Shown: in pieces, positions 12,182 through 29,676 of the stretch
How the letters are laid out: every line of letters starts with the position of its first letter
Numbering within the stretch: the first letter of the stretch is position 1
NCBI RefSeq assembly: GCF_030064895.1
Contig: NZ_JASJEB010000004.1
Location: forward strand, 1-64,000
Source: Crocosphaera sp.
GTDB taxonomy: Bacteria; Cyanobacteriota; Cyanobacteriia; Cyanobacteriales; Microcystaceae
Length of the DNA stretch: 64,000 bases
Reading direction: 5' to 3'
Made by a program: the position numbers and the translations under genes
The notes under the pieces: generated by a model
What the model saw: the letters and a program-made list of their open reading frames with translations, nothing else
Database searches by the model: none
Told to the model about the DNA's origin: nothing

Positions 12182-15100
12182 ATGGATCGAGAAACATTTA
12201 AAGAAATTTACTACAATAAACTTACCTCAAAACAGAGGCAAGCCTTACAAGGATTTTTATCAGGGTTGTCAGATTTAGATATTGCTTACAAAATGGACGC
12301 AACAAATCGAGCAACAGCTACTAAGCACTTAACTAATGTGGGAAAAAAGTTCGGTTACCCCCCGGAAATTGAACCGGATTATCGATTTATTTTAGTAGAA
12401 TTATTTGCTCAATATTTACCTGAGTTAGTGAGTAAGAAAGTTTTAGATAGATATGGATTATTTAACCAAGAAATTCGCTTTCCTGAGGGAACAGAACCGT
12501 TAGGTTCCCCTTTCTATGAACTTCGCTCTGTTGAAGAAAGTTGTTATGCAGAAATTCAGGAACCTGGGGCATTAATACGAGTTAAAGCTCCCAGGAAAAT
12601 GGGAAAAACTTCCTTGATTAAAAGAATACTTGCTCGTGGTAAAAAGAAAAATTTTAAAACAGTTTACTTGAATTTTAGTTTAATCGAAAAGCAAAAAATG
12701 TCACAACAGGAACAATTTTTAAAGAGCTTTTTTGATTATATCTTATTACAGCTGTCTTGGCCCAATAGTGGTGAAAGACAAGACTTTAATATGTTGAAAT
12801 TAACTCATCAATTAGAAATATTGCTTAAGCAGATTCCTGAAGGAATTATCTTAGCTTTAGATGAGATTGATCAATTGTTTGAATACCCAGAAATATATCA
12901 AATTAATATTACTTATTTAGTCAGGTTAACAGGTTTTACCTTTGAAGAATCTAAAGCAGCTTTATTACCAGGATTAACCGATGATTTACAATGTGCTGAG
13001 TCTATTCTTAAACAAATTTTAGATTGGACAGGTGGACAACCTTTTTTAACTCAAAAATTATGTCGTATTGTTCAACAAAAAAACAAAATTAATAGTATTA
13101 ATATTAATGAATTAGTCAAAGAATCTATACTAGATAATTGGGAATTTCAAGATCAACCTGAACATTTGAAAACAATTCGCGATCGCTTATTAAATGATGA
13201 GACAAAAGCGATTCAACTATTAGGATTATATCAAGAAGTTTTATTATCTAATACTAATTCATCTTATTTTCCTATAAAAGTTGATAATTCTTTAGGACAA
13301 GTGCAGTTAAGATTATCTGGTATTGTTGGAATTAAAGACAACTATTTACAAGTTTATAATCCAATTTATGAATATATTTTTAATTTAGATTGGGTAAAAA
13401 GTAAATTAGCTAAGTTACGTCCCTATGCAGCAAAAATGAATGCTTGGATTGAGTCTAATTATAATTCAGATTACTTATTACAAGGAGAAACATTAGATGA
13501 GGTTATTAAATGGTCAGATAACCAGAAACTAAGTTCAATTGACTATCAATTTATTACCGCATCTCAACAGTTTTTTGTTAAACAAGAAACCTTAGAAAAA
13601 GAAGCAAAAATTAAGGCAAATTTGCTGTTGCAACAAGCAAATAAAAAAGCAAGACGGTTAGTATTAGGTGGGAGTATTTTTTCAATTTTTTCATTATTTT
13701 TAGTTGTAAGTAGTATTATTTTTGTCCAATATCAGCGTAAAAAAGCTAACATTTTTCAAAACCAAGTCAAAACAATACAACAAAGTTATAATGCAGAACA
13801 ACAATTTAATTCTCAACCCTTAGAAGGTTTATTATCAGGAATAAAAGCTGGAGAAAGCTTAGAAAATTTAGTTGATAATTTGTCATTTATTGAACAATAC
13901 AAAAGTTTTTCACCTGTATTAGTATTACTAAAAATTTTAACTGAAATTAAAATTTTTAATCAAGTTCAAACAAACATTGAAAATGTAAGAAGTCTTCAAT
14001 TTAGTCCCCAAGGAGATTTAATTGCTATTTCGGGAGATAACGATCTGATAATCTTATCAAAATCAGGGAAAATAATTCAGACATTTACTTTAAAATCAGA
14101 AGACTCAATTAAAACATTACAGTGGGATAAGATAACGCACAATCTGATTATAATAACAACAAAAGGAAATATTATGATTTGGGATAAAAATATTGATCAA
14201 TTACAGTTATTGACTTCATATAACAATGATTTATTAAAAGCAAAAATTAGTTCTGATGGTCAAATCATTGCTATTATTACTTCTCAAAATTTAAGACAAG
14301 TTTTAGAAGTTTGGAAACTAGATAAAACATTAAAAAAAGAATTTTCTGTTCAAACATCAGGAGTAGAAACTTTGAATATTAGTCCTGATAATCGTATTAT
14401 TGCTCTAGGAAACGAAGATGGAATAATTAAACTTTTAGATAGGGATGGAAATGTTAAACAGACATTATCAAAGCATGAAAAGTTTATTACTAAAATTAGC
14501 TTTAGTCCTGATAATAAAATGATCGCAACTGGAAGTGATGACGGGATAATAAAGTTGTGGGAGATGGATGGAACTTTGAAAGAAACACTAGAAGAACATC
14601 AAAACGGAATTACAGATATTCGCTTTAATCCTCACGGTAAATTAATTGCATCGAGTAGTGAAGATAAAACAATTAAAGTGTGGAAACAGGAGGAAAATTC
14701 AACTACTATTTTATCAAATTATAATAACGCTGGTACTCACTTTGATTTTAGTCCCGACGGCAAAATTTTAGTCTCGGGAAGTTACTCGAAACTGGTAAAA
14801 TTTTGGAAATTAAATCAGGTAGGATTACCAACAATTACTGTCTCAGGTTCTATTGTTAATCTTGATTTTGATCAAAAAAATCAACAAATTATTATCAGCG
14901 ATATCACAGGAAATATATCTTATTTTTCCTTAGCAAATAATTCTCTTCAAAAAGTAAACTTGAATCAACAAGAATCAATGTGATCGCAGATTAATCAAGA
15001 AAAAAATATAATAGCAACTGTTGATGATTTTTTCATCAAATTATGGACATTAAAGGGAGAATTAATCAAAGAAATTTCAACTAAAAATTCATTTATATCA

Positions 15101-16085: not shown

Positions 16086-17195
16086 TTATTTGATGATTAA
16101 TTTATAATCTCCCGTTTCTCCAGGTTCAAAGGTATTAGATACAATTATATATTGACCGTCTTCTGGCAATCTAGCTCTAATTTTTGCATTGAAGTTATTA
16201 GGGGAAATATCGTCATTCTGAGCAATGATTTTTTCTTGTTTAGGAAAGACTAAAAATAAGTTACCATCAATACGATTACTATTCATTTCAATTATGACTT
16301 CTTGACCAGCACGGCCAGAAAATTGATATCTATGATAATAACTATTATTGGGTAAAGTTTTTTCTCCTGCTTTAAAACTAGCCGTTATAATAGTACCTTC
16401 TGGGGGTAATTCTGGTACTTGAGATTGTCGGGTATTATTCTGTTGTGGACGCTGAGCAATTTTTGGAGCATTTCCCTGTTCAATAGCAACTAAAAAGGGT
16501 TGTAAATGTTTAACCGATAAGGCTAAACTAATGCCCATATAAAATTTCTTTCCTGTGTGATTAATCAATGCGGTATTTACCCCGATTACTTCTCCCTTGG
16601 AGTTTAATAATGGTCCACCAGAATTGCCACCGTTAATGGCTGCATCGTGTTGAATCATTCCTCCTCCTTCATGAAGACGACTAACAACTCCGTAAGTAAA
16701 AGTATTGTGAAAATCTTCACGTAAAGGAGTGCCAATGGCATAAACAGATTGACCTACTTTAACTGAATTAGCAGAAGCGAAAGGAAGAAAGGGCAAATTA
16801 TTTTGATTGCGAATTTTTATGGCAGCTAAATCTATGCCATTTGGTTCAAAAGCTACGATATCAGCTACGGCTTTTGTTCCATCTGCTAACTTAATATCAA
16901 CAGGAGAATTACTATCCTCAATCACATGAGAATTTGTTATCACTAATCCATCAGAACTGACAATAAAACCACTTCCTATACTTCCCTTATCAGTAAGAAT
17001 AAGTACCACACTAGGACTCGCTTGTTCATAAACACGAATACGGGTTTTTTCTTCTGCTGTTTCTGCCGATACCGAAGCAGAAGGAATAATACTATTTCCC
17101 TTCAAATCAAAACTATCAATTACCATATATCCACCTACGCTAATTAATCCAGTTAGTAGGCCACTAATACTGAGTCGCAATAGTTGTTTTTTCAT
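16086..17195 (-). CDS. Secreted S1C (Deg/Htr-like) serine protease with PPC domain
   Basis: The 369-residue protein has an N-terminal membrane or signal segment (about 5-25). The trypsin-like domain (about 52-240) has an intact triad: His90 in TNSHVIED, Asp122 in GIDLAAI and Ser192 in GGNSGGPLL. There is no PDZ domain. Instead residues about 266-369 form a pre-peptidase C-terminal (PPC) beta domain (PNNSYYHRYQFSGRAGQEV, then DGQYIIVSNTFEPGETGDY), often found on secreted peptidases. It should act in the periplasm or outside the cell. Its upstream region has TTCACCA/TGGTGAA elements, including a palindrome shared with the COP23 promoter at 24.08 kb. That sharing suggests co-regulation with the COP23 locus. 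Confidence 0.88.
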   Translation of the reverse strand: MKKQLLRLSISGLLTGLISVGGYMVIDSFDLKGNSIIPSASVSAETAEEKTRIRVYEQASPSVVLILTDKGSIGSGFIVSSDGLVITNSHVIEDSNSPVDIKLADGTKAVADIVAFEPNGIDLAAIKIRNQNNLPFLPFASANSVKVGQSVYAIGTPLREDFHNTFTYGVVSRLHEGGGMIQHDAAINGGNSGGPLLNSKGEVIGVNTALINHTGKKFYMGISLALSVKHLQPFLVAIEQGNAPKIAQRPQQNNTRQSQVPELPPEGTIITASFKAGEKTLPNNSYYHRYQFSGRAGQEVIIEMNSNRIDGNLFLVFPKQEKIIAQNDDISPNNFNAKIRARLPEDGQYIIVSNTFEPGETGDYKLIIK

Positions 17196-17299
17196 GGGTT
17201 TATCTCCTCATCTTTGATTACTTAACAGAATAATTCAATTCACCAAACTTGTGAGAATAGGTGCCGAAAATTTCTCCTTATCTTCCTTGGTGAATATTT

Positions 17300-17319
17300 T
17301 GGTGAACAAAACGTCACCA
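17300..17319. promoter_or_regulatory. Palindrome TGGTGA-N8-TCACCA upstream of the S1C protease
   Basis: This 20-bp palindrome lies 105-124 bp upstream of the protease start. Further half-sites are nearby: TTCACCA at 17239-17245 and TGGTGAA at 17288-17294. The same palindrome with the same eight-base spacer is found at 24084-24103. It is probably the binding site of a dimeric regulator; which one is unknown. Confidence 0.5.
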
Positions 17320-17382
17320 GGAATCTAAACGGTGCATAACAGTAGGGTGGGTTAGACGGCTATAATCGTTGTTATCTTTAAT

Positions 17383-18785
17383 GTCGAGGTGAAGACCCCC
17401 GTTACACGAATGTTAACGGTGGGATGAAACCTCGACCAGTATATAAACTGCGGAGCAACAATATTTTAGCAACTGTTTGGTCAAGCAAGAAACCTTTGTG
17501 TTAAACTATATTTAGGCTTGCAAGGTTGGCATAAATGTTAGTCCTAGAGTTCAAAGTTAGAGCTAAAAAGCATCAATATTCAGCTATAGATGAGGCGATA
17601 CGTACCGCTCAGTTTGTCCAGAATAAGTGTTTGCGCTTTTGGATGGACAATCAAAAAGTCGGCAAGTATGACCTCAACAAGTATTGTCGTGTATTAGCCC
17701 ATACTTTTGACTTTGCTGACAAACTAAACTCACAAGCTAGACAGTCTAGTGCTGAAAGATCATGGTCAGCTATCTCTCGATTTTACGACAATTGTAAACG
17801 AAAGATTCCTGGTAAAAAAGGGTTTCCAACGTTTAAAAAAAACTGCCGTTCTGTAGAATACAAGACCACGGGATGGAAGTTAGACTTAACTACCAGAAAA
17901 GCCATTACTTTTACTGATAAGAATAATATTGGTAGAGTCAAGCTAGTAGGAACTTACGACTTAAACTTTTACCCGATTGAGTCCATCAAACGAGTAAGGT
18001 TAATTCGTAGGGCTAATGGGTACTATTGTCAGTTCATCTTGTCAGTTGATGTAAAAATAGACACTGAACCAGCTAATAGTGTAATTGGTTTAGATGTAGG
18101 TTTAGAGTCTTTCTACACTGACCAAAATGGCGACAAAATTGATAACCCTAGATTCCTAAGAAAAGGAGAAAAGAAGCTTAAAAAACTGCAAAGAAGACTA
18201 TCTAGAAAAAAGAAAGGGTCTTCTAATAGAAGAAAAGCTAGACAGCGATTAGCTAAAGCTCACCTTAAAATAAGTAGGCAACGTAAAGACTTTGCTGTGA
18301 AGTTAGCAAGGTGCGTAATTTACTCTAACGACGTAATTGCCTACGAAGATTTAAGGATAAAGAACTTAGTAAAAAATCATTGTCTAGCAAAATCAATCAA
18401 CGATGCAGCCTGGTATCAGTTTAGAGAATGGATAGAGTATTTGGGGAAAAAACACGGCAAAATCACTGTTGCTGTACCCCCTCACTACACTAGCCAAAAA
18501 TGCTCTAACTGTGGAGAAATAGTTAAAAAATCTCTCTCAACAAGGACTCATATTTGTGCTTGTGGATGCCATTTAGACCGTGACGAAAATGCTGCACGCA
18601 ATATTTTGAAAATTGGATTAAGTACGGTGGGTCACACCGGAACTTGGCTACAAGATAGCCTAAACGCTTTGGGAGAGGATACCGCTACTTTTTCAGGAGA
18701 AATCCTGTCTAAGCAAGTAACCTCAGTGATCAAAGAATCCCCCGTTACAGCGTGAGCTTAACGGTGGGAGTGTCAAGACAGGAAT
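17383..18785 (+). mobile_element. IS200/IS605-type element carrying only tnpB (approximate ends)
   Basis: The element is inferred from tnpB and matching hairpins at both sides. On the left, CCCCCGTTA (17396-17404) pairs with TTAACGGTGGG (17413-17423), inside an outer GTCGAGGT/ACCTCGAC stem (17383-17390/17429-17436). On the right the identical arms recur at 18739-18747 and 18758-18768, with the tnpB stop codon in the loop. Subterminal hairpins of this kind are what the Y1 transposase of IS200/IS605 elements recognises. No tnpA is present, so it would need a transposase in trans. Exact ends are not determined. Confidence 0.6.
17535..18755 (+). CDS. tnpB: RNA-guided endonuclease TnpB
   Basis: TnpB is the RuvC-type nuclease of IS200/IS605 elements, guided by an RNA made from the element's right end; it is the ancestor of Cas12. 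The 406-residue protein has an N-terminal OrfB HTH/WED region. The RuvC catalytic acids are Asp187 (GLDVGLES), Glu271 (AYEDLRIKN) and Asp350 (DRDENAARN), with a zinc ribbon of CSNC (323-326) and CACG (341-344). A basic segment RRLSRKKKGSSNRRKARQRL lies between. All key residues are present, so it may be active. No tnpA is adjacent. A hairpin overlapping its stop probably forms part of the guide RNA scaffold. Confidence 0.92.
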   Translation: MLVLEFKVRAKKHQYSAIDEAIRTAQFVQNKCLRFWMDNQKVGKYDLNKYCRVLAHTFDFADKLNSQARQSSAERSWSAISRFYDNCKRKIPGKKGFPTFKKNCRSVEYKTTGWKLDLTTRKAITFTDKNNIGRVKLVGTYDLNFYPIESIKRVRLIRRANGYYCQFILSVDVKIDTEPANSVIGLDVGLESFYTDQNGDKIDNPRFLRKGEKKLKKLQRRLSRKKKGSSNRRKARQRLAKAHLKISRQRKDFAVKLARCVIYSNDVIAYEDLRIKNLVKNHCLAKSINDAAWYQFREWIEYLGKKHGKITVAVPPHYTSQKCSNCGEIVKKSLSTRTHICACGCHLDRDENAARNILKIGLSTVGHTGTWLQDSLNALGEDTATFSGEILSKQVTSVIKESPVTA

Positions 18786-18790
18786 CTAAC
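18739..18790 (+). ncRNA. Candidate right-end guide (omega/re) RNA scaffold of TnpB
   Basis: The hairpin CCCCCGTTA...TTAACGGTGGG overlaps the tnpB stop and is followed by GAGTGTCAAGAC. By analogy with characterised TnpB systems, the RNA scaffold covers the 3' end of tnpB and the right end, and the guide is the DNA just beyond the element. The exact RNA ends are unknown; this is inference from family behaviour. Confidence 0.4.
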
Positions 18791-18838
18791 AATCAGTCGT
18801 AACCCACCATTTCAGACTATGACTTAGGAGTTTAACTC

Positions 18839-19279
18839 ATGACTCAAACAATACCGGAATCAACTTATGAGAGAGATTATCACCAATGGACAATAGATCA
18901 AGTTAAGGCTTTGCGAGAGCTTCTGGATACTCATGGCGAACTAAGGCATCTAGGAACACTAGATTTAGAAAATATTATTGAGGAGATTGAAGCCTTGGGA
19001 CGTAGTGAATATAATGCCGTAGTCAGTTTATTAATGAGACAAATTGAACATCGTTTAAAGATTGATTATGTTCCTTTAGAAGAGTGCTATAAAAAATGGC
19101 AGGTTGAGATACAAGCTTTCAGGATTGGGATTAAACGCAAGATTGCACCCAGTATGAAGCCAAGACTTGAAGCCGAATTAGAAGAAATTTATCAAGATGC
19201 TGTGAGTTTGGTGGTTTTAGAGTACGGCGTAAAAGTACCAAATCAATGCCCTTATAGCCTAAACGAACTACTACCTTAA
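18839..19279 (+). CDS. DUF29 family protein
   Basis: The 146-residue protein matches the cyanobacterial DUF29 pattern: ESTYERDYHQWTIDQVKALRE near the start, then LDLENIIEEIEALGRSEYNAV and an alpha-helical remainder with MRQIEHRLKIDYVP. It is soluble with no signal peptide. DUF29 proteins occur in many paralogues in cyanobacteria, often near mobile DNA, and have no proven role. It starts about 50 bp after the TnpB element and could be carried with it or be the gene next to the insertion point. It is convergent with the protease/TPR gene. Confidence 0.82.
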   Translation: MTQTIPESTYERDYHQWTIDQVKALRELLDTHGELRHLGTLDLENIIEEIEALGRSEYNAVVSLLMRQIEHRLKIDYVPLEECYKKWQVEIQAFRIGIKRKIAPSMKPRLEAELEEIYQDAVSLVVLEYGVKVPNQCPYSLNELLP

Positions 19280-19347
19280 AATGGGTTTCCTGGTGTATTA
19301 GCAGAGCGTAATACACCCTACTGAACCAATTTGTAATTATCGATTTT

Positions 19348-22300
19348 TTAACGACTTAACTCAATGGCCTTATTAGCATCTTCTCTAGCTTTTTCAGGCT
19401 CATTTAATCGACGATAAACTTCACTTCTCTCCTTATACAAATCTGCATTTTCTGGGTCAAGACTAATGGCTTTTGTATAGTCTTCTAATGCTCCTTGAGT
19501 ATCATTCATTTTTAAGAGAAGGTTCCCTCTATCTCTATAGACAAAAGCATAGAGAGTACCATCATTGTTATCCATTTCTAATTTTTGTAATATATGTGAA
19601 GAAAACATTTCAAAATCTTCGGGAAGCTCTCCAATCCATAATTTATAGGTTCCAGGAGTTGGATCATTCATCAATTCAATAGCTTTATTAAAATCTTTTA
19701 AAGCGTTTTGCACTAATTGATCTTTTTTATTAGATACTGATGCTATTATTAACATATAATTACCTCTTTCATAATAGGCACCACCATATTTAGGAGCAAT
19801 TTCAATTGCTTTATCAAGGTCTGCGATCGCTTGAGAGAGATAAAGCTTAATTATTGGCACTGCTTTCTCGAATTTTTCTTGTTCAGTCAGGTTTGTATTC
19901 GATTGCAGTTCTCGCATTTGCTGAAGTAAATTTCCGTTATGAATCTCTGCCCTTGATGAATAGGCTGAAGCATAATTTGGTTTTAATTTAATGGCTTCAT
20001 TCACATCTTCCATCGCACCTTCATAGTCTTTTAAAAAATGAATTTTCACTTTAGCACGATCATAATAGTATTGAGCTTTATCTGGTTTAATTTCGATAGC
20101 TTTGGACATATCTTTGACTGCTAATTCACCTTGACTCGCCAAGAAATAGTAATTGCCTCTCACAAAATAAAGTAAATCATTTTGAGGATCTAACTCGATA
20201 GCTTTTGTATAGTCAGCTATGGCCTTCGGATCGTTTTTTAACAGACGATACAAACCTCCACGAAGTATATAATAATCAGTATCAGTGGAGTCAAATTCAA
20301 TTAGTTTATTATAAGCATTGATAGACTGTTCATAATTTCCCAACGCATCATGAATACGTCCTTCACAAAAGTATCCTTCTATTAACCCTAATTCAAGGGA
20401 CTGATTGCAATCATTTAACGCTTTTTGATATTCCCCTATTTTCCCATAAACTAAACTTCGTTGAAAGTAAGCAATACCAGAGGACTGAATTTCTATTGCT
20501 TGAGTATAGGCATTTATGGCATCAGGATAACGTTTAAGTTTATCTAAAATACTGGCTTTTTCAAGATAAAATTTTGGTTCATCTTCAATCTGTTTAATAC
20601 CCTCATTGATAGCAACTAATGCTTCGTTTGTCTTTCCTAATTCATCGAGAACAATAGCTTTCTGATACCAAGCTTTTCCTTTTAAATACCAATTAGAAGT
20701 AAGGGGAATTACTTGCTCAAAAGCTTCAATCGCTTTTAAGTTAGTTTCATCCTTATTCTGTTGAGCATAAGCTAATCCTAAAGCATAATAAGGTTCAGCT
20801 AGATTCTCATTAAGTTGGATGGCTGTTTTAAAAGCAGAAATAGCCTCCGTTGATCTTTCGAGTCGCCATAAATTATTACCATAATTTAACCAGTCTGTTT
20901 CTGATGCGTTACTGGGAGGTTTTTCTACAACAAAAGCAGGGTGTTGTTTCAGACTTTTTGATTCATTTTCATTGAGAGGGGTTGGAACTTGATTAGAAAT
21001 ATTAAAAGAGGTAGTATTGACGTTTTTATCCTCAGCAAATTTCAATAAAGTGCTTGCAGGAACCCCATGAGCATAACCCAGTTGACGAGTTTCTGTTAAA
21101 GTAATCTGTTGTCCTTCTTCACCAGTATTAATACCAATAACATGACCATTAGTATCCAAAACCGGACCACCACTCATCCCTTTATAGGTAAGGTTACTAT
21201 AAACTAATTCATAGCCAGAAATATTGATATCTAGTTTCTGTTGATCGAATAAAACTGCTAAGCCTCTTTCTCTTTGAAAACGATAACCTGGGGTAAATTT
21301 TCTCAGTCCATTTAATTCACCAGGAAACCCTGAAACGAATACCCATTGTCGTCGAGAAATGGGAATATTATATTGACCAATAGTTGCCAGTTGATAAAGA
21401 TTTTTGCTCTTAAATTTAACAATGGCTGCGTCTATTCCTTTGGGTAAGATAATGTCTTGAGATTGGATATCATGCCGTATTCCATCAGGAGTAACTAACG
21501 TATAATTACTATTAATTTTTCCTGGTTCACAAGAGTTATGATTTTCACTTTCATTATAATCATATACAACATGACAAGCAGTCAAAACATAATAAGTATC
21601 CCCTTCTTTCCCAACAATAACCCCTGAGCCTATGACCTCTTTATCACTATCGATTCTAACTGTAATTTGTCGAGCAATATTATCAACTTTTTCCGCTATA
21701 TTTAACCCTACTTTCCACTCATTAGGAATGAAAGCTAAGTTAGGAGCAACTGCCATAAGGGTTTGAATAGGAACAGCAAAACTTAAATCTCTATAGCTTT
21801 CTATGTGTTGTTCGTAGGGTCGAGAACCATCCAAATAAGTATAAGCATCGTCAAGAATAGGATTTTGTAGTAATCCATTTACCCCAATTAATTCCCCTTT
21901 CTCATTTAATAATGCTCCCCCACTCATTCCTGATTTAACTTCAATGTCATAACCAATTTGATAGCCACCTATAAAGGGTTTAGATGCTTGTTTTTTAATA
22001 GATCCTTGAGTAAAATAAAATTGCTCCGTTTCTTCAGGAAAACCAACAGAATAAACCGTACTATTTTCCTCTAAATTAGTGTTAACCGCTAAAGTTGCAA
22101 CTTGATAACTATTAACAGATTCAAAAGTTAAAACAGCTAAATCATTACCTTCTAATGAGTTACCTTCACTAATAACTTTAGCTGTGTAAGATTCACCATC
22201 ATTAGTAATAATAGTATTATCTGCTTTACTATTAATAACATGAGCATTAGTAAGTACAGTATAAGTATTGCCTTCCTTGCCAATAATGACCCCTGAACCT

Positions 22301-22491
22301 GCACTATTATCTGTTTCAACTTTAACACTAATAGCTTGGGCTTTTTCTTGAATTGTTTCTCTATTTAAAGCTTGACTAATCAACAAATTAGAAGGATTTT
22401 GCTTTAAAGAAACTGGTAAACTTCCGTAGGCAACCGACGCAATAAAAAGACTAGCGAGAGAACTTAAAATGAAGAATCGATTCTTTTTCAT
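19348..22491 (-). CDS. Secreted tandem-trypsin-domain protein with TPR array
   Basis: I start at the ATG at 22491 because it begins a clean signal peptide (KKNRFFILSSLASLFIASVAYG); the upstream in-frame extension looks non-coding. The 1047-residue product has two trypsin-like domains in tandem. Domain 1 (about 45-250) has His84 in NAHV, Asp117 in GNDLAVL and Ser190 in GMSGGALL. Domain 2 (about 270-480) has His307 in TACHVV, Asp354 in GIDAAIV and Ser440 in GMSGGPVL. Both triads are intact. The rest is about 14 TPR-type repeats (AWYQKAIVLDELGKTNEAL and similar), presumably for binding proteins. It is downstream of two COP23 genes on the same strand and is a paralogue of the 25.0 kb gene in the mirror half of the locus. 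Expected location is periplasmic or extracellular. Confidence 0.88.
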   Translation of the reverse strand: MKKNRFFILSSLASLFIASVAYGSLPVSLKQNPSNLLISQALNRETIQEKAQAISVKVETDNSAGSGVIIGKEGNTYTVLTNAHVINSKADNTIITNDGESYTAKVISEGNSLEGNDLAVLTFESVNSYQVATLAVNTNLEENSTVYSVGFPEETEQFYFTQGSIKKQASKPFIGGYQIGYDIEVKSGMSGGALLNEKGELIGVNGLLQNPILDDAYTYLDGSRPYEQHIESYRDLSFAVPIQTLMAVAPNLAFIPNEWKVGLNIAEKVDNIARQITVRIDSDKEVIGSGVIVGKEGDTYYVLTACHVVYDYNESENHNSCEPGKINSNYTLVTPDGIRHDIQSQDIILPKGIDAAIVKFKSKNLYQLATIGQYNIPISRRQWVFVSGFPGELNGLRKFTPGYRFQRERGLAVLFDQQKLDINISGYELVYSNLTYKGMSGGPVLDTNGHVIGINTGEEGQQITLTETRQLGYAHGVPASTLLKFAEDKNVNTTSFNISNQVPTPLNENESKSLKQHPAFVVEKPPSNASETDWLNYGNNLWRLERSTEAISAFKTAIQLNENLAEPYYALGLAYAQQNKDETNLKAIEAFEQVIPLTSNWYLKGKAWYQKAIVLDELGKTNEALVAINEGIKQIEDEPKFYLEKASILDKLKRYPDAINAYTQAIEIQSSGIAYFQRSLVYGKIGEYQKALNDCNQSLELGLIEGYFCEGRIHDALGNYEQSINAYNKLIEFDSTDTDYYILRGGLYRLLKNDPKAIADYTKAIELDPQNDLLYFVRGNYYFLASQGELAVKDMSKAIEIKPDKAQYYYDRAKVKIHFLKDYEGAMEDVNEAIKLKPNYASAYSSRAEIHNGNLLQQMRELQSNTNLTEQEKFEKAVPIIKLYLSQAIADLDKAIEIAPKYGGAYYERGNYMLIIASVSNKKDQLVQNALKDFNKAIELMNDPTPGTYKLWIGELPEDFEMFSSHILQKLEMDNNDGTLYAFVYRDRGNLLLKMNDTQGALEDYTKAISLDPENADLYKERSEVYRRLNEPEKAREDANKAIELSR

Positions 22492-22743
22492 AGTTTTGAA
22501 GTAATGATATTTACAAGGATAAAAAAAGTAGTAGGTTAGTTTAAAGAATGAAACCCAACAAAATCGGATTTTAATGCACAAAATTAGTCGTGTCATTCCA
22601 CTTAATTTTAGTTGCTTGTTAGAATCGTCAACTATAAATTATATTTCTGTGCCATAGTGCGCCCTACGTAGTGAGGAACTTCCCCTCCTGTTCCCCTCCT
22701 GGAAGGGGTTAGGTGTGGGTTGACTTCTGACTTCTGACTTCAT

Positions 22744-23280
22744 TCAAGATTGTAGAAATTTTTCGATCTCAATTTCGTAATAAATCTGATAATCGTTATC
22801 GTTGGTGCTATGTCGAATAACTTTGCCACCTCGTCCCCGTAATCTATCTTTGAGGTGCGTTAATACTTGAATAGGATCATCAGAATTTCGTAAAGTTAAA
22901 AGAACAGTTATACACTTTCCTCGTATTTTTCTGGCAGTACAAATTACAGGTTGTCCATTAACTTTACTATTGGTGATGAAATTAAGACTCTCGTTATTAG
23001 CTGCCTCTTGAAAGCGACGAGAAACCGAACGACATCTTTCTAAAGGGGTAATAGTATCATTACCAACCCAATCATATTTCCAATAAATTATGGGAACTCT
23101 ATCATTAAGTTGATGAGATTTAAAGGCATAGGTAGTAGGATAGGTTTGATTATTTTCCCTTCCAGAAGCACAAGTAAAGCGTAATCTTTCCTGGGCTTTT
23201 GCTTGAGGAGTTAGATAAAAAAAACTGCTATTTATTAGTAAACAAACAACCGTGGATAACCTTATTAAGGGTAGTTTCAT
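22744..23280 (-). CDS. COP23-domain secreted protein (copy 1)
   Basis: The 178-residue protein has a signal peptide (LIRLSTVVCLLINSSFFYL, cut after AKA). A single COP23-type domain follows: RFTCASG, PTTYAF, RCRSVSRRFQEAANNESL, PVICTARKIRGKCITVLLTL, GRGGKVIRHS and YYEIEIEKFL. Four Cys positions (FTC, ERC, VIC, GKC) are shared with the two neighbouring paralogues and could form two disulfides. COP23 was first described as a circadian-oscillating peripheral membrane protein of a unicellular diazotrophic cyanobacterium; its function is not known. This is the most divergent of the three copies here and probably shares a transcript with copy 2. Confidence 0.85.
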   Translation of the reverse strand: MKLPLIRLSTVVCLLINSSFFYLTPQAKAQERLRFTCASGRENNQTYPTTYAFKSHQLNDRVPIIYWKYDWVGNDTITPLERCRSVSRRFQEAANNESLNFITNSKVNGQPVICTARKIRGKCITVLLTLRNSDDPIQVLTHLKDRLRGRGGKVIRHSTNDNDYQIYYEIEIEKFLQS

Positions 23281-23380
23281 TTTCTTCTTTGTTGTTATTA
23301 GGTAATAGGAGAAAGCCTTTATTTTTTTTCTGGGAAGATTGGATGAATTTACACCCCTTCTTCCCTTCTACCCGTCAAAG

Positions 23381-24007
23381 TTATTCAAGAGGGGTCTTAT
23401 CTTCTACAGGAGCAAGTCTAAGAAATCTATCAAAATCAATTTCATAGTATTGTTGGGATTGTCCTGTAGCACTATGTCTAATCATTCCGCCTCGGCCATT
23501 CAATTTTTCTACAACTTTTGTTGTCATTTCAATAGGGTCATCCTCGGGACGAAGTGTTATTAAAGTGGTCACACAGTCGCCTCCTCTTTCTCGCGCAGTA
23601 CAAATAACAGGTTGATTATTTTCCCAACCATTGGCGATGTATTTGATACTCCCATTATCATAAGCTTCTTGAAACCTTGAAGAAACTGCTTCACACCGTT
23701 TTTGTGGTGTCCATTCAGAATTATTATGCCAATCTTTCACCCAGCGAACCACCGCTTGTTTCCCTTTAGAAGTCCAAGCATAGGTAGTGTACTGCTCTTG
23801 TTCGCTTTGTTTATCATATCCTTGACGACAAATAAACTCTACTCTTCTATTACTGTTTTGAGCGAGTAATAAATTATTGTTGTCTCCACTCACTTCTTGG
23901 TCGATAACTGAGATATTTGATGGGACTGGGTTTGACTGAATCGCATTAGTAAAAGTCACTGTGATTGATAAACCTAACACGAAAATTGCTGACGCTTTGT
24001 ATAGCAT
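23381..24007 (-). CDS. COP23-domain secreted protein (copy 2)
   Basis: The 208-residue protein starts at 24007 with GAGGA upstream and has a signal peptide (ASAIFVLGLSITVTFTNA). The COP23 domain has VEFICRQGYDK, TTYAWTSKGKQAVVRWVK, QKRCEAVSSRFQEAYDNGSI, QPVICTARERGGDCVTTLIT, RPEDDPIEM and YYEIDFDRFLRLAPVE, with the same four Cys. It is much closer to copy 3 than to copy 1, so copies 2 and 3 look like a recent duplicated pair facing away from each other. The start is 77 bp from the TGGTGA-N8-TCACCA palindrome in the shared divergent promoter. Confidence 0.88.
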   Translation of the reverse strand: MLYKASAIFVLGLSITVTFTNAIQSNPVPSNISVIDQEVSGDNNNLLLAQNSNRRVEFICRQGYDKQSEQEQYTTYAWTSKGKQAVVRWVKDWHNNSEWTPQKRCEAVSSRFQEAYDNGSIKYIANGWENNQPVICTARERGGDCVTTLITLRPEDDPIEMTTKVVEKLNGRGGMIRHSATGQSQQYYEIDFDRFLRLAPVEDKTPLE

Positions 24008-24063
24008 GAGTTACATTCCTCACTAAGTTCTTATGTGTTTGATTAGTTTAGAGTATAGACGAC

Positions 24064-24122
24064 TTCACCACAGGGGTAATGATTGGTGAAGTTTTTTTCA
24101 CCATCTGTGCAACCCAGGTGAA
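24064..24122. promoter_or_regulatory. Divergent COP23 promoter with alternating TTCACCA/TGGTGAA sites
   Basis: Between the two divergent COP23 genes the order is TTCACCA (24064), TGGTGAA (24084), TTCACCA (24097) and AGGTGAA (24116). The central pair forms TGGTGA-N8-TCACCA at 24084-24103. Its edges are 77 bp from the left start codon (24007) and 76 bp from the right one (24179), so one regulator could control both directions. The same palindrome occurs upstream of the S1C protease at 17.3 kb. Confidence 0.6.
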
Positions 24123-24178
24123 TTGATATATATTGTTGGATAACAACATGAGATTATTGATTGTGAGGAGACAAAAAA

Positions 24179-24772
24179 ATGCAGTACAAAACTGTAATTA
24201 CTTCTGTTGCGACTGTTTTAACCGCTAATTTGGTGACCATAGTTTTACCCCTATCTGCTAGGGAAAATATTGTCAACAATAGCAGCATCAACAGAATGCT
24301 ATTAACACAAAATAGTGACCAAGGTGAGTTTGTTTGTAAAGAAGGATACGATAAACGAACCAATCAAGACCAACCTACCACTTATTTCTGGACTCCTGAA
24401 GGCAAACGGGGGGTCATTCGTTGGGTAAAAGCTTGGGGGAATAGTGAACAATGGACACCTCAAACTCGGTGCGAAACTGTCTCTAAAAAGTTCCAAGAAG
24501 CATACAAAAATGGCAGTTTACAAAAATACATTACTCATGGTGTGGAAAATAATCAACCAGTTGTGTGTACAGCCTATGAAAAAGGGGGAAAATGTGTTAC
24601 CACATTGATGACATTACGTCCTGAAGATGACCCCATTGAGATGGCTAAAAAGGTTTCTAATGGCTTAAAAGGTCGCGGTGGAGGAATCATTCACCATAGT
24701 TCTGAAGGCAAATCACAACAATACTACAAAATTAATTTTGACCGTTTTCTCAGACTAACACCTGTTGAATAA
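24179..24772 (+). CDS. COP23-domain secreted protein (copy 3)
   Basis: The 197-residue protein begins at an ATG with GAGGAG eight bases upstream. It has a signal-type N-terminus (VITSVATVLTANLVTIVLP). The COP23 domain has GEFVCKEGYDKR, TTYFWTPEGKRGVIRWVKAW, TRCETVSKKFQEAYKNGSL, QPVVCTAYEKGGKCVTTLMT, RPEDDPIEM, GRGGGIIHHS and YYKINFDRFLRLTPVE. The four shared Cys are present. It is the rightward partner of copy 2 and is followed by the larger tandem-protease/TPR gene, mirroring the leftward half of the locus. A location outside the cytoplasm is inferred from the leader. Confidence 0.88.
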   Translation: MQYKTVITSVATVLTANLVTIVLPLSARENIVNNSSINRMLLTQNSDQGEFVCKEGYDKRTNQDQPTTYFWTPEGKRGVIRWVKAWGNSEQWTPQTRCETVSKKFQEAYKNGSLQKYITHGVENNQPVVCTAYEKGGKCVTTLMTLRPEDDPIEMAKKVSNGLKGRGGGIIHHSSEGKSQQYYKINFDRFLRLTPVE

Positions 24773-24839
24773 TTTAGCAGTACCAAAATTAGTTGGAACC
24801 TTCTTGATATTCCTAAATTGTCATTCCGAGGAACGAGGA

Positions 24840-24915
24840 ATCTCTTTAATACCAATATACCAATTCCAAAAAGTAGGGGTTAACGCTTCGACTACCCTCA
24901 ACTTTAACCCCTACA
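24840..24915. repeat. MITE-family partial copy with GTAGGGGTTAA hairpin
   Basis: The arms GTAGGGGTTAA (24873-24883) and TTAACCCCTAC (24904-24914) form a hairpin, preceded by ATACCAATTCC-like sequence. The same arrangement occurs at 10092-10192, 48279-48325 and about 62355-62416. It sits between COP23 copy 3 and the large protease gene and might also act as a partial terminator between them. Confidence 0.5.
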
Positions 24916-25011
24916 AACAAAAAACCTAGGCCGATGAACTGCTCACCTTAAATAATATCTGTTCATTTTCTTCTCTCTTTTATTCAATTAACATTACTAA
25001 GCTTCAAAATA

Positions 25012-28000
25012 ATGAAAAACATCAACTTTTTAATTCTCACTTCTTTAATAACTCTTTTGACAGCACCATTTGCCTATGCTGTGTTACCAGAATTATCTGA
25101 GAACGGGATCAGAAATGTGCTAATTAGTCAAGATATAAATTCTGAAAAAATTAAACAAAAAGCTGAAGCAATTACCGTTAAAATTAAATCGGATAATAGT
25201 GCAGGTTCTGGGGTAATTATCGCTAAAGAAGGGAATACTTACACTGTCTTAACTAATGCTCATGTTATTAATAGCAAAATTCCTAATCAAATTGTTACCA
25301 TTGATGGTAAAAGTCATGAAGCAAAAGTCATTAAACAAGGTAATTCTTTGGAAGGTAATGACTTAGCTGTATTAACCTTTAATTCTTCTGATAGTTATCA
25401 AGTTGCCACTTTAGCTACTAACTCTGATATTCAAGAAAATCAACGGGTTTATTCGGTGGGTTTTACTGAAGAAACTGATGAATTTTATTTCACTCAAGGA
25501 AACATCAATTTACAAGCACCCAAACCCTTTTTAGGGGGTTATCAAATTGGTTATGATATTGATGTTAAATCAGGTATGAGTGGAGGTGCATTATTAAACG
25601 AAAAAGGGGAATTAATTGGTGTAAATGGACTACTGAAAAGACCTATTTTAAACGATGCTTATAATTATTTAGATGGTTCTAAACCTTTTGAGCAAAATAT
25701 TCCTACCTATCGAAATTTAAGTTTTGCTGTTCCTGTAGAAACTTTAATGGAAGTTGCTCCGAATTTAGCCTTAATTCCTGATGAGTGGAAAACAGGGTTA
25801 AATGTAGCAGAAAATGTGGATAATATTGCTCGACAAATTACTGTCAGAATTGATAATGAAGATCAGGTAATAGGATCAGGTGCGATCATAGGAAAAGATG
25901 GGGATACTTATTATGTATTCACTGCTTGTCATGTGGTTTCTGATTATGATTGTATGTCAGGAGAAGTCAAAGATAATTATACGTTAGTAACTCCTGATGG
26001 TGAGAAGTATCCCTTGACTAAAAATAATATAATTTTGCCTGAAAAACTGGATGCAGCCATCATTAAATTTGAGAGTGAAAAAGAGTATAAAGTGGCAACT
26101 ATTGGCAAATACAACACAAGCAGATTACAGAAACACTTAGTCTTTGTTTCTGGGTTTCCTGGTGAATTAAATGGGGTGAGAAAATTTACCGCCGGTTATC
26201 AATTACACCTAGATCAAGGGTTAGCTTCATCCTTCAGAAGTAATAGTGAAGATATCAAAAAATATGTCGATACTTCTGGTTATGAATTACGGTACACTAA
26301 CCTCAGCAGGAAAGGAATGAGTGGCGGACCAGTTTTAGATATTAATGGTCAAGTAATTGGCATTAATACAGGACAAGACGGAGAACAGAGAAGCTTAACA
26401 GAAATAGGTAAATTAGGTTATGCCTTTGGAGTTCCTGCCTCAACTTTAATCGGTTTTGCTAATCAAAAACAAATCAATTTAAACTATGTCGATGAAATGC
26501 CTGTACCCTTAAAAGAACAGCAACTCAAAATAGCCAAACAACATCCAGCCTTTATTATAGAAAAACCTCCAGAAAATAGTAATGAAAATGCTTGGTTAAC
26601 TTATGGTAATGAGTTATGGCGAATCAGACAATATAAAGAAGCTATTGCAGCCTTGAATAAAGCCATTGAACTTGATGATGATGATAATTTTGCTGAAGCT
26701 TATTATGCTTTGGGCTTAGTTTATAGAACCCAAGCAATAAATACAGGTAATGACTCCTTAGATATGAAGGCGCTCGCTGCTTTTGACCAAGCAATTTCTC
26801 TGAGTGAGGATTTCATGTTGAAAGGACAAGCTTGGTATTTGAAGAGTATTAGTCTCAGAAATTTAAGAAGAGATGAAGAAGCATTAGTTGCTATCAATCA
26901 AGCAATTAAAGGAATTTATCCTGATGATGCTACATTTTATAGACAACGGGCATTGATTTTACAGGACTTGGAGCGTTATGTAGAGGCAAAAGAAGCTTAT
27001 GACGAGTCTCTGAAAATTTCTCCCTTACCTATAACCTATTTTTCAAAATGTTTACTTCTATTATTCGATATAAAAGAACCAAAAGCAGCTTTAGATGATT
27101 GCAACAAAGCCATTGACTTAGGTTTTATTGAAGCTTACTCTTATCGTGGTATTGCTCATTTTGCTTTAGGTAAAGAACAAGCTGCTTTAGATGACCATAA
27201 TCAGGCGATCGCATTCGCCCCTAATAGCTCTCATTTATATCAAATGCGCGCTGGTATGTATTTCTTTACGGGGAAATATGAACTAGCGATCGCCGACTAT
27301 AATAAAGCGATTGAAGTATATCCACAGAATCGTGATTTAGCCAGTTTCCATTTAGCCAGTTTATATTCTGGATTGGCTTTTGTGTATCAGAGGATGGATG
27401 ATTATCAACAACAGATCGTCAACCTTACTAAAGCCCTTGAATTAGACCCCAGTGACCATCTAACGTACCAAATAAGAGGTCAAAGTCACAATTTTAATGG
27501 TCAATATAATCTAGCTATACAAGATATGACCAAAGCCATCGAACTTCAGCCAGATAATGCAGATTATTATCATCAACGGGGGGGGTTTAAATCTTCATTG
27601 GGTGATAATCAAGGGGCTTTAGAAGATTATAATCGAGCCATTGAGTTAGATCGGAATAATGCTTCAGCTTACTCGAAGAGAGCGAGCTTATATACAGATC
27701 AATTTCAGGATTATAAAAAAGCAATGGAAGATTATGATCGAGCTATTGAAATTAATCCTAAATATGGACAAGCTTATGAGTCTAGAGGATTATTGCGACA
27801 CAAGCTATTGTCTGATTTACCAGGGGCTTTAGAAGATTATAATCGAGCCATTGCCTTAATAGAAGCTCCCGATCCTATTGTTGATTCTGTCTATCTGGGA
27901 TCGCTCCCAGAAGATGTACCATCTAATTTTCCTTACCAATTAAAAACCTCTTATAACAAATATGATTCAGCTTACGGACAGAGAGGAGATGTTCGTTTGC

Positions 28001-29676
28001 AATTAAAAGATTATCAGGGAGCATTAGAAGATTATAACGAAGCAATAAGAAGAAATCCTAATAATGGAGATCATTATGTCGGCAGAGGTGATTATTATGC
28101 CCAAACCAACCAAGCAGAAAAAGCACAGGCTGATTACAAGAAAGCCATAGAAGCTTATTCAGAAACCCTCAAAACTGACCCCAAATATCCTAATCAAGTA
28201 GCTTTTGTTTATTCTAATCGTGCAAAGGTTTATAGAAAACTCAAAAACAATCAAGCCGCCATTGCTGATTATAGTAAAGCTATTACTCTTACTACTAATA
28301 ATCCTAAATCTTTCTATATATTCAGAGGTAGTCTTTACTCAGAGATCAAAGAACATAAATTAGCAATTAAAGACTTTTCTAAAGTGATTGAACTTGAACC
28401 AAATTCTCCAGGTTCATACGTTTTCAGAGGATTGGAATATTTAAAAATTAAAAATATTCAAGCCGCCATTGAGGATTATTCTAAGATAATTGAATTAAAT
28501 CAAAAGGCCGCTGATCCTCAATACTTTGATTATTATACGTTCCGAGGAGAACTATATCAACAAACAAAAAATTACCAAGGGGCAATTGAAGACTTTTCTA
28601 CCTTCATTAAATTACAACCGAACACACCGGAATCAATAAAAGCTTATGCAAAGAGAGGTGTTATTTATACTCAAGTTAAAAATTATTCAGCAGCCATTGA
28701 GGATTTCTCTACAGTAATTAAATTAAATGAAAAAGCAGCTAATCCTCAATACTTTGCTGCTTATATGGGACGAGGAGAATTATATCAACAAACAAAAAAT
28801 TATCAAGGAGCAATTGAAGACTTTTCTAGCTTCATTAAGTTACAGCCTAATTCACCCCAATCAATGCAAGCTTATGCACAAAGAGGTGTAACTTATACTC
28901 AAGTTAAAAATTATTCAGCAGCCATTGAGGATTTCTCTACAGTAATTAAATTAAATGAAAACATAGCTAATCCTCAATACTTTACTGCTTATATGGGACG
29001 AGGACGTTTACATCAACAATCAAAGAATTATCCAGAGGCAATTCAAGACTTTTCTACTTTCATTAAATTACAACCTGAAAATCATCAAGGTTATACCTAT
29101 CGTTGTATGGTTTATACCGATTTAAAAGATTATAATCAGGCTATGAAAGATTGTAATCAAGCCCTTGCAATTGCTCCCAATAACCCAGAAGTTTATTTAT
29201 CTAGTGCTGCTCTTAATAGTGGTTTAAAGAATTATTCAGCAGCCATTAAAGATGCTAATAAAATCATTGAACTTGCTCCGGCTTTTCCTGTTGGTTATTG
29301 GTTAAGAGGAGCTATGTATTGGGCGCAAAATAACCCAACTAAAGCCTTATCTGATTGTGAATTAGCATTGAGTAAGAATGATCAATTTGCCCCTGCAATC
29401 TCCTGTATTGCTTCCATAAAATATGAACAGGGAGACAAACAAAAAGCTATTGAATTATGGCAAAAAGCTCTTACTATTCAAGACGATTTAGCTGACACTA
29501 AATTAGCTTTAGCTGTGGGATTATACCATCAAGGACAACCAGAAAAAGCCTTATCTTTAGCCAAAGAAGCTATTAAAATAGATGAACGCTTAAAAGATAT
29601 TAATCATCTTCAAGACAATTTATGGGGTAAACAATTAATAGAAGATACAAAACCCCTCTTGAATAAAGTTAAATAA
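25012..29676 (+). CDS. Very large secreted tandem-trypsin-domain protein with long TPR array
   Basis: The 1554-residue protein has a signal peptide (NFLILTSLITLLTAPFAYA) and the same layout as its paralogue at 19.3-22.5 kb. Domain 1 has His84 (NAHV), Asp117 (GNDLAVL) and Ser190 (GMSGGALL). Domain 2 has His307 (TACHVV), Asp347 (KLDAAII) and Ser437 (GMSGGPVL). From about residue 515 to the end it is almost entirely TPRs, roughly twice as many as the paralogue. Three copies of a 228-bp (76-residue) unit lie at about 28553-29236 and are nearly identical in DNA, showing recent internal expansion. Both catalytic triads look intact. Such long TPR arrays suggest a scaffold that delivers partners or substrates to the proteases; COP23 proteins are obvious candidates by position. 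Confidence 0.88.
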   Translation: MKNINFLILTSLITLLTAPFAYAVLPELSENGIRNVLISQDINSEKIKQKAEAITVKIKSDNSAGSGVIIAKEGNTYTVLTNAHVINSKIPNQIVTIDGKSHEAKVIKQGNSLEGNDLAVLTFNSSDSYQVATLATNSDIQENQRVYSVGFTEETDEFYFTQGNINLQAPKPFLGGYQIGYDIDVKSGMSGGALLNEKGELIGVNGLLKRPILNDAYNYLDGSKPFEQNIPTYRNLSFAVPVETLMEVAPNLALIPDEWKTGLNVAENVDNIARQITVRIDNEDQVIGSGAIIGKDGDTYYVFTACHVVSDYDCMSGEVKDNYTLVTPDGEKYPLTKNNIILPEKLDAAIIKFESEKEYKVATIGKYNTSRLQKHLVFVSGFPGELNGVRKFTAGYQLHLDQGLASSFRSNSEDIKKYVDTSGYELRYTNLSRKGMSGGPVLDINGQVIGINTGQDGEQRSLTEIGKLGYAFGVPASTLIGFANQKQINLNYVDEMPVPLKEQQLKIAKQHPAFIIEKPPENSNENAWLTYGNELWRIRQYKEAIAALNKAIELDDDDNFAEAYYALGLVYRTQAINTGNDSLDMKALAAFDQAISLSEDFMLKGQAWYLKSISLRNLRRDEEALVAINQAIKGIYPDDATFYRQRALILQDLERYVEAKEAYDESLKISPLPITYFSKCLLLLFDIKEPKAALDDCNKAIDLGFIEAYSYRGIAHFALGKEQAALDDHNQAIAFAPNSSHLYQMRAGMYFFTGKYELAIADYNKAIEVYPQNRDLASFHLASLYSGLAFVYQRMDDYQQQIVNLTKALELDPSDHLTYQIRGQSHNFNGQYNLAIQDMTKAIELQPDNADYYHQRGGFKSSLGDNQGALEDYNRAIELDRNNASAYSKRASLYTDQFQDYKKAMEDYDRAIEINPKYGQAYESRGLLRHKLLSDLPGALEDYNRAIALIEAPDPIVDSVYLGSLPEDVPSNFPYQLKTSYNKYDSAYGQRGDVRLQLKDYQGALEDYNEAIRRNPNNGDHYVGRGDYYAQTNQAEKAQADYKKAIEAYSETLKTDPKYPNQVAFVYSNRAKVYRKLKNNQAAIADYSKAITLTTNNPKSFYIFRGSLYSEIKEHKLAIKDFSKVIELEPNSPGSYVFRGLEYLKIKNIQAAIEDYSKIIELNQKAADPQYFDYYTFRGELYQQTKNYQGAIEDFSTFIKLQPNTPESIKAYAKRGVIYTQVKNYSAAIEDFSTVIKLNEKAANPQYFAAYMGRGELYQQTKNYQGAIEDFSSFIKLQPNSPQSMQAYAQRGVTYTQVKNYSAAIEDFSTVIKLNENIANPQYFTAYMGRGRLHQQSKNYPEAIQDFSTFIKLQPENHQGYTYRCMVYTDLKDYNQAMKDCNQALAIAPNNPEVYLSSAALNSGLKNYSAAIKDANKIIELAPAFPVGYWLRGAMYWAQNNPTKALSDCELALSKNDQFAPAISCIASIKYEQGDKQKAIELWQKALTIQDDLADTKLALAVGLYHQGQPEKALSLAKEAIKIDERLKDINHLQDNLWGKQLIEDTKPLLNKVK
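28553..29236 (+). repeat. 228-bp tandem repeat inside the TPR array
   Basis: The start TATATCAACA (or TACATCAACA) recurs at 28553, 28781 and 29009, exactly 228 bp apart. Each unit encodes 76 residues (two TPR-like motifs, including GAIEDFS and SAAIEDFSTVIKLNE). Units 1 and 2 are close to identical; unit 3 has drifted at its 3' end. The frame is kept, so copy-number change would add or remove whole TPR pairs. Confidence 0.8.

Follow-up and report, generated by a model that had tools for sequence, protein, structure and literature searches.

COP23 proteins as likely partners of exported trypsin-like proteases in cyanobacteria, seen from a Crocosphaera locus

COP23 and the trypsin-like domain are both already known protein families. 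COP23 (Pfam domain PF14218) and its rhythm were described in 1996 from Synechococcus RF-1 (reference in PMC11131595), and the protein is still called one of unknown function (PMC11131595). Among exported serine proteases the closest described relatives of those considered here are the HtrA/Deg enzymes (family S1C; DegP, DegQ, and HhoA of Synechocystis), which have a chymotrypsin fold and a His-Asp-Ser triad. The two families meet in a locus at positions 16086-29676 of a 64,000-nucleotide stretch of Crocosphaera sp. DNA (contig NZ_JASJEB010000004.1, positions 1 to 64,000; hereafter the window), which contains three COP23 genes, two giant secreted proteases with tandem trypsin-like domains and TPR repeats, and a smaller S1C-type protease with a C-terminal PPC domain (S1C-PPC). 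It is very likely that COP23 and these exported proteases are functional partners, as the first-pass annotation of the window had proposed, because they are tied together by gene order in many genera, by fusions, by the co-inheritance of pairs, and by one published case of co-regulation.

The genome from which the window comes has ten COP23 matches and nine protease matches. On its contig 148 a COP23-trypsin pair is flanked by an M48 gene and a gene for a DUF4344 putative metallopeptidase, and on contig 74 there is a convergent COP23-trypsin pair. In 292 genomes of the phylum, COP23 was found in 97 and the protease (E ≤ 1e-20) in 66, and 62 of those 66 also carry COP23. For distances, the best 150 places of each family were listed, with five protease candidates scored in most genomes. 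Among the matches listed, 76 of the 150 COP23 places lie within 3 kb of a protease, compared with about 0.6 expected if genomes of 4 Mb are assumed, and in 74 of these 76 close pairs (40 genomes) the two genes are on the same strand with COP23 upstream. Seen from the other side, 81 of the 150 listed protease places are within 3 kb of COP23, and so are 31 of the 43 listed tandem proteases with respect to a listed COP23. Three of the other 12 tandem proteases (loci L176, L179, and L181) have COP23 upstream on the same strand, that of L177 has it on the opposite strand 1.9 kb away, and for those of genomes G024 and G095 the listed coordinates put it 4.2 and 7.5 kb away.

Gene order was read in 148 stretches, comprising 140 of the 141 regions obtained from the best COP23 matches, six stretches of the window's own genome, the window, and L027, a locus from a Crocosphaera metagenome-assembled genome (MAG), with open reading frames called by a simple script; the last COP23 region, of genome G286, was read separately and has no trypsin. 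The 162 COP23 genes in these stretches have a same-strand trypsin gene at position +1 in 79 cases, at +2 in 44, and at -1 in 21, while a trypsin gene on either strand occurs 3, 2, 2, and 1 times at +5, +6, -5, and -6, respectively (8 among 422 genes). Both counts, that by distance and the 79 of 162 at +1, bear out the expectation that COP23 is enriched near such proteases in other genomes. The +1 pair is spread over 43 of 73 genomes, 28 of 44 genera, and 12 of 21 families, and its intergenic gap has a median of 93 bp and is 100 bp or less in 42 of 78 pairs. Plasmid records, an independent collection, agree: all eight with a COP23 match have an adjoining trypsin-like gene, downstream in seven of them and upstream only in that of Acaryochloris (L209). 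Of the 21 loci that have a trypsin at -1, 17 show the order single-trypsin protease, COP23, tandem protease; Stanieria and Aulosira show a serine protease, COP23, and a tandem-trypsin giant in this order. PPC was detected in 5 of 22 scanned proteases of the first kind in this order, the window's included.

The two domains are also found fused, in three genera. The L136 protein consists of a signal peptide (recognized by eye), a trypsin, and a COP23 domain, and its full-length relatives, 80-86% identical, occur in another three genomes of its genus. The same layout recurs in L168 and L169, which both belong to a single genome from a second genus. In L100 (4388-7357) an AAA_35 domain, a coiled coil (by eye), a trypsin with the triad Asp-Asn-Ser, and COP23 form one protein, apparently a STAND-like ATPase tied to an exported sensor head. 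Pfam found COP23 in 6 of 38 linked proteases scanned together, where linked denotes a same-strand trypsin at +1 or +2, so that a convergent pair such as L014 counts as unlinked. Partners at +1 appear to have been inherited together, the distances within the two families correlating over 78 pairs with a Pearson coefficient of 0.69, compared with at most 0.06 in 500 free shuffles and at most 0.40 in 500 shuffles of partners within genomes. Finally, in a transcriptome of Arthrospira platensis a COP23 gene (RS07465) was down (log2 -1.97) together with the serine protease genes RS07460 and RS07455 (log2 -2.08 and -2.10, respectively; PMC13114239). The consecutive tags suggest that the three genes are adjacent; the available sections of that paper do not link them.

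The proteases of these loci retain their catalytic residues, with His-Asp-Ser in 189 of 196 trypsin domains and in 101 of the 102 of those directly downstream of COP23. Among the seven exceptions, some of which are gaps, are the L100 fusion and, in each of the two L153 tandem proteases, the first domain (Asp-Asn-Gly and Asp-Asn-Ser); the second domains of these two proteases are not. No PDZ domain was found by Pfam at E ≤ 0.001 in the 38 linked proteases or in the three of the window, and the window proteases reach 125, 62, and 57 bits with NF041521, the HhoA/HhoB/HtrA equivalog model, whose cut-off is 450. The protease part of the L136 fusion model has the fold of HtrA/Deg proteases, matching 1y8t with Z 25.0 and HhoA (5t63) with Z 22.3, and by sequence, too, Do/DegQ/HtrA proteases are the best matches among solved structures. 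A COP23 model built from 83 sequences has a mean predicted local distance difference test score of 80, with 113 of 208 residues at 90 or above, and the topology beta3-alpha-beta3-alpha followed by a short tail; conservation is complete or almost complete at four cysteines and one tryptophan. An N-terminal hydrophobic segment is present in 135 of 162 COP23 proteins and in 76 of 79 downstream trypsins, compared with 327 of 1248 other genes.

At the other end, 19 of the 162 COP23 proteins have a C-terminal tail terminating in tryptophan, often P-[LIV]-W. Such tails are also present in neighbouring proteases, kinases, and a metallopeptidase, and their share drops with gene distance from COP23, from 11.7% at distance 0 to 4.3% at 1 and 1.3% at 6 or more; in L144 (6902-10402) four consecutive genes all code for them. 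The tail looks like a sorting or recognition tag. McdB of carboxysomes is a different case.

How the partners might work together can be proposed with about even confidence: COP23 of the window's clade would be a dedicated envelope partner, a regulatory or adaptor subunit, of HtrA-type proteases devoid of PDZ. The unit is a small operon-like array of at least one COP23 gene with one or two genes for secreted trypsin-like proteases directly behind, and in some loci with an S1C protease in front of COP23 and a tandem-trypsin giant after it. COP23 would bind the protease in the periplasm or outside the cell and may do there the job of the C-terminal PDZ of DegP, DegQ, and HhoA, either regulating the protease or bringing substrates to it. 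Mostly it would act as a separate subunit; in the fusions it would be held covalently, C-terminal to the protease, as a PDZ would sit. The TPR array of the giants may hold clients or other subunits, and the whole would probably serve to process envelope or extracellular proteins or to control their quality. A broader view, offered only tentatively, is that COP23 is an unrecognised regulatory domain standing in for PDZ in a branch of the HtrA-type proteases that is widespread among cyanobacteria. This protease family would then have given up a built-in control domain for a detachable one, and the giants would be scaffolded versions of the same machine.

Several results weigh against this picture. 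No protease match at E ≤ 1e-20 was found in 35 of the 97 COP23 genomes, and 67 of the 162 COP23 genes (two of them in fusions) have a same-strand trypsin neither at +1 nor at +2. Six of the 43 listed tandem proteases, two in L173 and one each in L174, L175, L178, and L182, have no COP23 in the stretch read. In the tree of COP23 domains (170 tips) there is a clade of 41 members, with support 0.98, none of which is trypsin-linked. By rank, the pair distances correlate at just 0.27, therefore close pairs carry much of the signal of co-inheritance. The fusion model has a predicted template modelling score of 0.65, and the COP23 model clearly resembles no solved fold, Foldseek giving no match in the PDB at E ≤ 0.001 and the best VIA Z being 4.0, so that its structure gives no hint of an adaptor. 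A Foldseek comparison with viral structures likewise gave nothing at E ≤ 0.001, and a search of solved-structure sequences with COP23 returned mostly antibody light chains at E ≥ 0.012, aligned largely with the poorly ordered N-terminal part.

The division of COP23 into types follows the tree, in which the presence of a linked downstream trypsin switches 17 times, compared with at least 43 times in 200 shuffles. All 16 members of the clade that holds the window copies (support 0.85) are trypsin-linked. Genome G143 looks like Rippkaea orientalis, which we take to be the same species as Synechococcus RF-1. In G143 and three congeners COP23 comes in two types, and no trypsin match lies within 25 kb of these genes. 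Of the seven COP23 sequences tested from these genomes, three group with the trypsin-less clade, and the window's clade contains none. Since these R. orientalis-like homologues lie outside the window's clade and far from trypsin genes, the circadian label should not be carried over to the window genes, nor circadian behaviour assumed for them. COP23 has also been reported as detected only in nitrogen fixers (PMC6315102). Such exclusivity was rejected here, for 56 of 59 genomes with nifK have COP23, but 41 of the 97 COP23 genomes have no nifK. In genome G147, 2.8 Mb in size, the COP23 match (L191) has six in-frame stops and is a decaying copy; the three congeners searched keep the frame open.

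The surroundings of COP23 genes without a downstream trypsin were scanned in 103 of 107 neighbours of at least 90 amino acids, four longer than 1200 amino acids having been dropped. They include eight PpiC rotamases and seven M48 peptidases. As a control, 103 of 167 genes lying at a distance of 4 or 5 were scanned; neither family is among the 25 listed for them, and Trypsin_2 is found in three. PpiC chaperones and M48-TPR (BepA-like) peptidases take part in envelope quality control, and such neighbours fit a general role of COP23 near envelope protein handling. A trypsin-less COP23 gene lies directly upstream of that for a PpiC rotamase in 8 of 160 cases at +1 (L159, 6821-11852; L109; others). 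The rotamase is followed by an ATP-binding cassette (ABC) transporter with a cyclic nucleotide monophosphate-binding domain (C39 below the cut-off), and an HlyD protein occurs in eight loci; Pfam was run on one representative each of the PpiC, ABC, and HlyD proteins. Position -1 of COP23 is occupied by a serine/threonine kinase gene in 19 of 159 cases, compared with at most seven at each other distance (e.g. L073, 5069-6628; L055, 7794-9407), and two of four such kinases scanned have a PsbP-like C-terminal domain.

The main rival explanation makes COP23 a cognate inhibitor, or a trans-acting pro-region, that silences the exported protease until it is needed, the inhibitor-first order protecting the cell. 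It agrees with the position of COP23 in most pairs, first, on the same strand, and at a short gap, and with proteases that, judging from their intact triads, are probably active. Many small exported inhibitors carry cysteines like the four near-invariant ones of COP23. There is no known inhibitor fold among the matches of the COP23 model, nor a clear match to any other solved fold. What speaks against inhibition is the retention of COP23 where triads are altered, as it stays fused to the Asp-Asn-Ser trypsin of L100 and beside the changed first domains in L153; therefore an adaptor fits better, and a pure inhibitor is weakened. The M48 peptidases and PpiC rotamases next to COP23 genes without a downstream trypsin point in the same direction, and we regard an inhibitor as unlikely.

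COP23 might instead be the main substrate or effector, released or activated when the protease cuts it or its Pro/Ser-rich tail. COP23 is exported, some members have long tails of this kind, and in one spheroid body no gene is expressed more strongly than a homologue of COP23 (PMC11131595); the spheroid-body-like genomes in this analysis have COP23 types outside the window's clade. The fusion, in which the protease carries an entire COP23 domain as a permanent part, argues against a substrate and leaves this explanation improbable. Just as little probability is given to the module being an exported branch of the cyanobacterial conflict and cell-death networks, made up of STAND ATPases, CHAT peptidases, kinases, and trypsins. 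The AAA_35-trypsin-COP23 fusion, the AAA_35 genes that L079 and the window have near COP23, and the kinase genes at -1 are in its favour, as are some COP23-less tandem proteases located beside DUF1822 (L174, L180) or CHAT (L177, L180), a setting described in PMC8195603. Most COP23 and trypsin proteins, however, have an N-terminal hydrophobic segment and therefore act outside the cytoplasm, and PADLOC matches cover the protease domain alone, with no full-length defence match and none at all for the three window COP23 proteins. A defence identity of the window proteases was rejected, the PADLOC matches being judged generic protease similarity. A mere neighbourhood without function, of two paralogue-rich mobile families travelling together, would account for the many copies per genome and for their presence on plasmids and beside insertion sequence (IS) elements, and it is very improbable in view of the near-constant order and strand, the fusions in three genera, the co-inheritance, and the published co-regulation.

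In the window, the COP23 and giant protease genes point outward from a single divergent spacer (24008-24178), a layout which the first-pass annotation had recognized and which Pfam supports. To the left, on the minus strand, lie two COP23 genes, 23381-24007 (208 amino acids, PF14218 E 1.3e-37) and 22744-23280 (178 amino acids, E 2.4e-33), followed by the first giant protease (19348-22596, 1082 amino acids), whose true start is probably 22491, since the homologous match begins there. To the right, on the plus strand, a COP23 gene at 24179-24772 (197 amino acids, E 1.4e-35) precedes the second giant (25012-29676, 1554 amino acids). The three COP23 proteins score 115-129 bits, passing the curated cut-off of 27, and have signal peptides recognizable by eye. 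Each giant has two Trypsin_2 domains and TPR repeats, forming a long array in the second, and His-Asp-Ser is present in all four domains, so that the two complete trypsin-like domains ascribed to each giant are real. Their export signals, like the others, were judged by eye and with a hydropathy script in place of a dedicated predictor. The arms 21553-22389 and 25114-25950, which join the two giants, are 79% complementary, and the COP23 genes at 23381 and 24179 share complementary stretches of 71-75%. Because these long arms connect both the proteases and the two outer COP23 genes, the mirror arrangement is a local inverted duplication: the symmetry noted at first is genuine, and the arrangement itself is local. 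The genes for an IS605-type TnpB (17535-18755) and a DUF29 protein (18839-19279), situated between S1C-PPC and the first giant, are outside the unit. Close to the locus there is an AAA_35-WD40 protein (12182-14983); AAA_35 proteins are found near COP23 in L079 too. An Rfam scan of the window gave tRNA alone, and promoter (57 vs. 48.9 in shuffles) and terminator (7 vs. 8.7) predictions were at about shuffle level.

The divergent spacer contains two palindromes, TTCACC-N15-GGTGAA at 24064-24090 and TTCACC-N14-GGTGAA at 24097-24122, which may be a candidate operator serving both arms. Two copies with a gap of 14 or 15 were reached in one of 100 shuffles of the window, the GGTGAA hexamer itself not being enriched there (30 vs. 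30.8 expected). Genome-wide, the palindrome occurs at 11 places, two of them in the spacer, compared with seven for a backward control. The gene for S1C-PPC (16086-17195, minus strand, 369 amino acids; Trypsin_2 8.3e-35, PPC 2.2e-6) was thought to share the palindrome; its upstream region has four GGTGAA half-sites at 17239-17393 and no full copy. A search of genome contigs with a single COP23 protein gave one relative, and a similar palindrome lies upstream of the related COP23 gene in the Crocosphaera MAG (L027, 4783-4809). The order there is a 376-amino-acid fragment of a giant protease (it corresponds to residues 246-561 of the protein encoded at 25012), the palindrome, COP23, a truncated COP23, and directly behind them an S1C-PPC gene 85% identical to that at 16086. 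Because this orthologue follows the COP23 pair, the S1C gene is part of the unit, despite the mere half-sites upstream of it in the window; the anticipated association of an S1C-type protease with COP23 recurs in other loci, such as L027. L027 (3419-5746) keeps only a piece of the giant and a truncated second COP23, which suggests that the giants can be dispensed with, one COP23 and S1C-PPC being retained.

With a protease partner that is conserved, in some cases fused, and in one case co-regulated, COP23 gains a first role that can be put to the test. A branch of exported HtrA-like proteases that lack PDZ comes to light in cyanobacteria as well, and the word circadian in annotations is not to be read into every COP23 gene. 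No description of the COP23-protease unit, of the fusions, or of the clade split was found in the open-licence literature. Compared with known systems, the unit shares with HtrA/Deg the exported chymotrypsin-fold protease and its triad, the fold match having been seen on the L136 fusion model and the window proteases being placed by Trypsin_2 and their triads. It differs in that the 38 linked proteases scanned have COP23, as a neighbour or a C-terminal fusion, and no PDZ, and in that the window giants have tandem catalytic domains and TPR. The window copies pass the Pfam cut-off for the domain of the Synechococcus RF-1 circadian protein; unlike the G143 homologues, which have no trypsin beside them, they belong to a protease-linked clade. 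M48-TPR (BepA-like) peptidases and PpiC resemble the window proteases as neighbours of COP23, although they belong to another catalytic class and are absent from the window. Some COP23-less tandem-trypsin-TPR genes adjoin DUF1822 (L174, 4273-9480; L180, 4958-12025), and those of L180 and L177 (162-9441) adjoin CHAT-CHASE2 or CHAT-periplasmic-binding genes. In this they recall the neighbourhoods of EACC2-caspase, sigma factor, and DUF1822 genes (PMC8195603), from which the window proteases differ in being exported and in having other neighbours.

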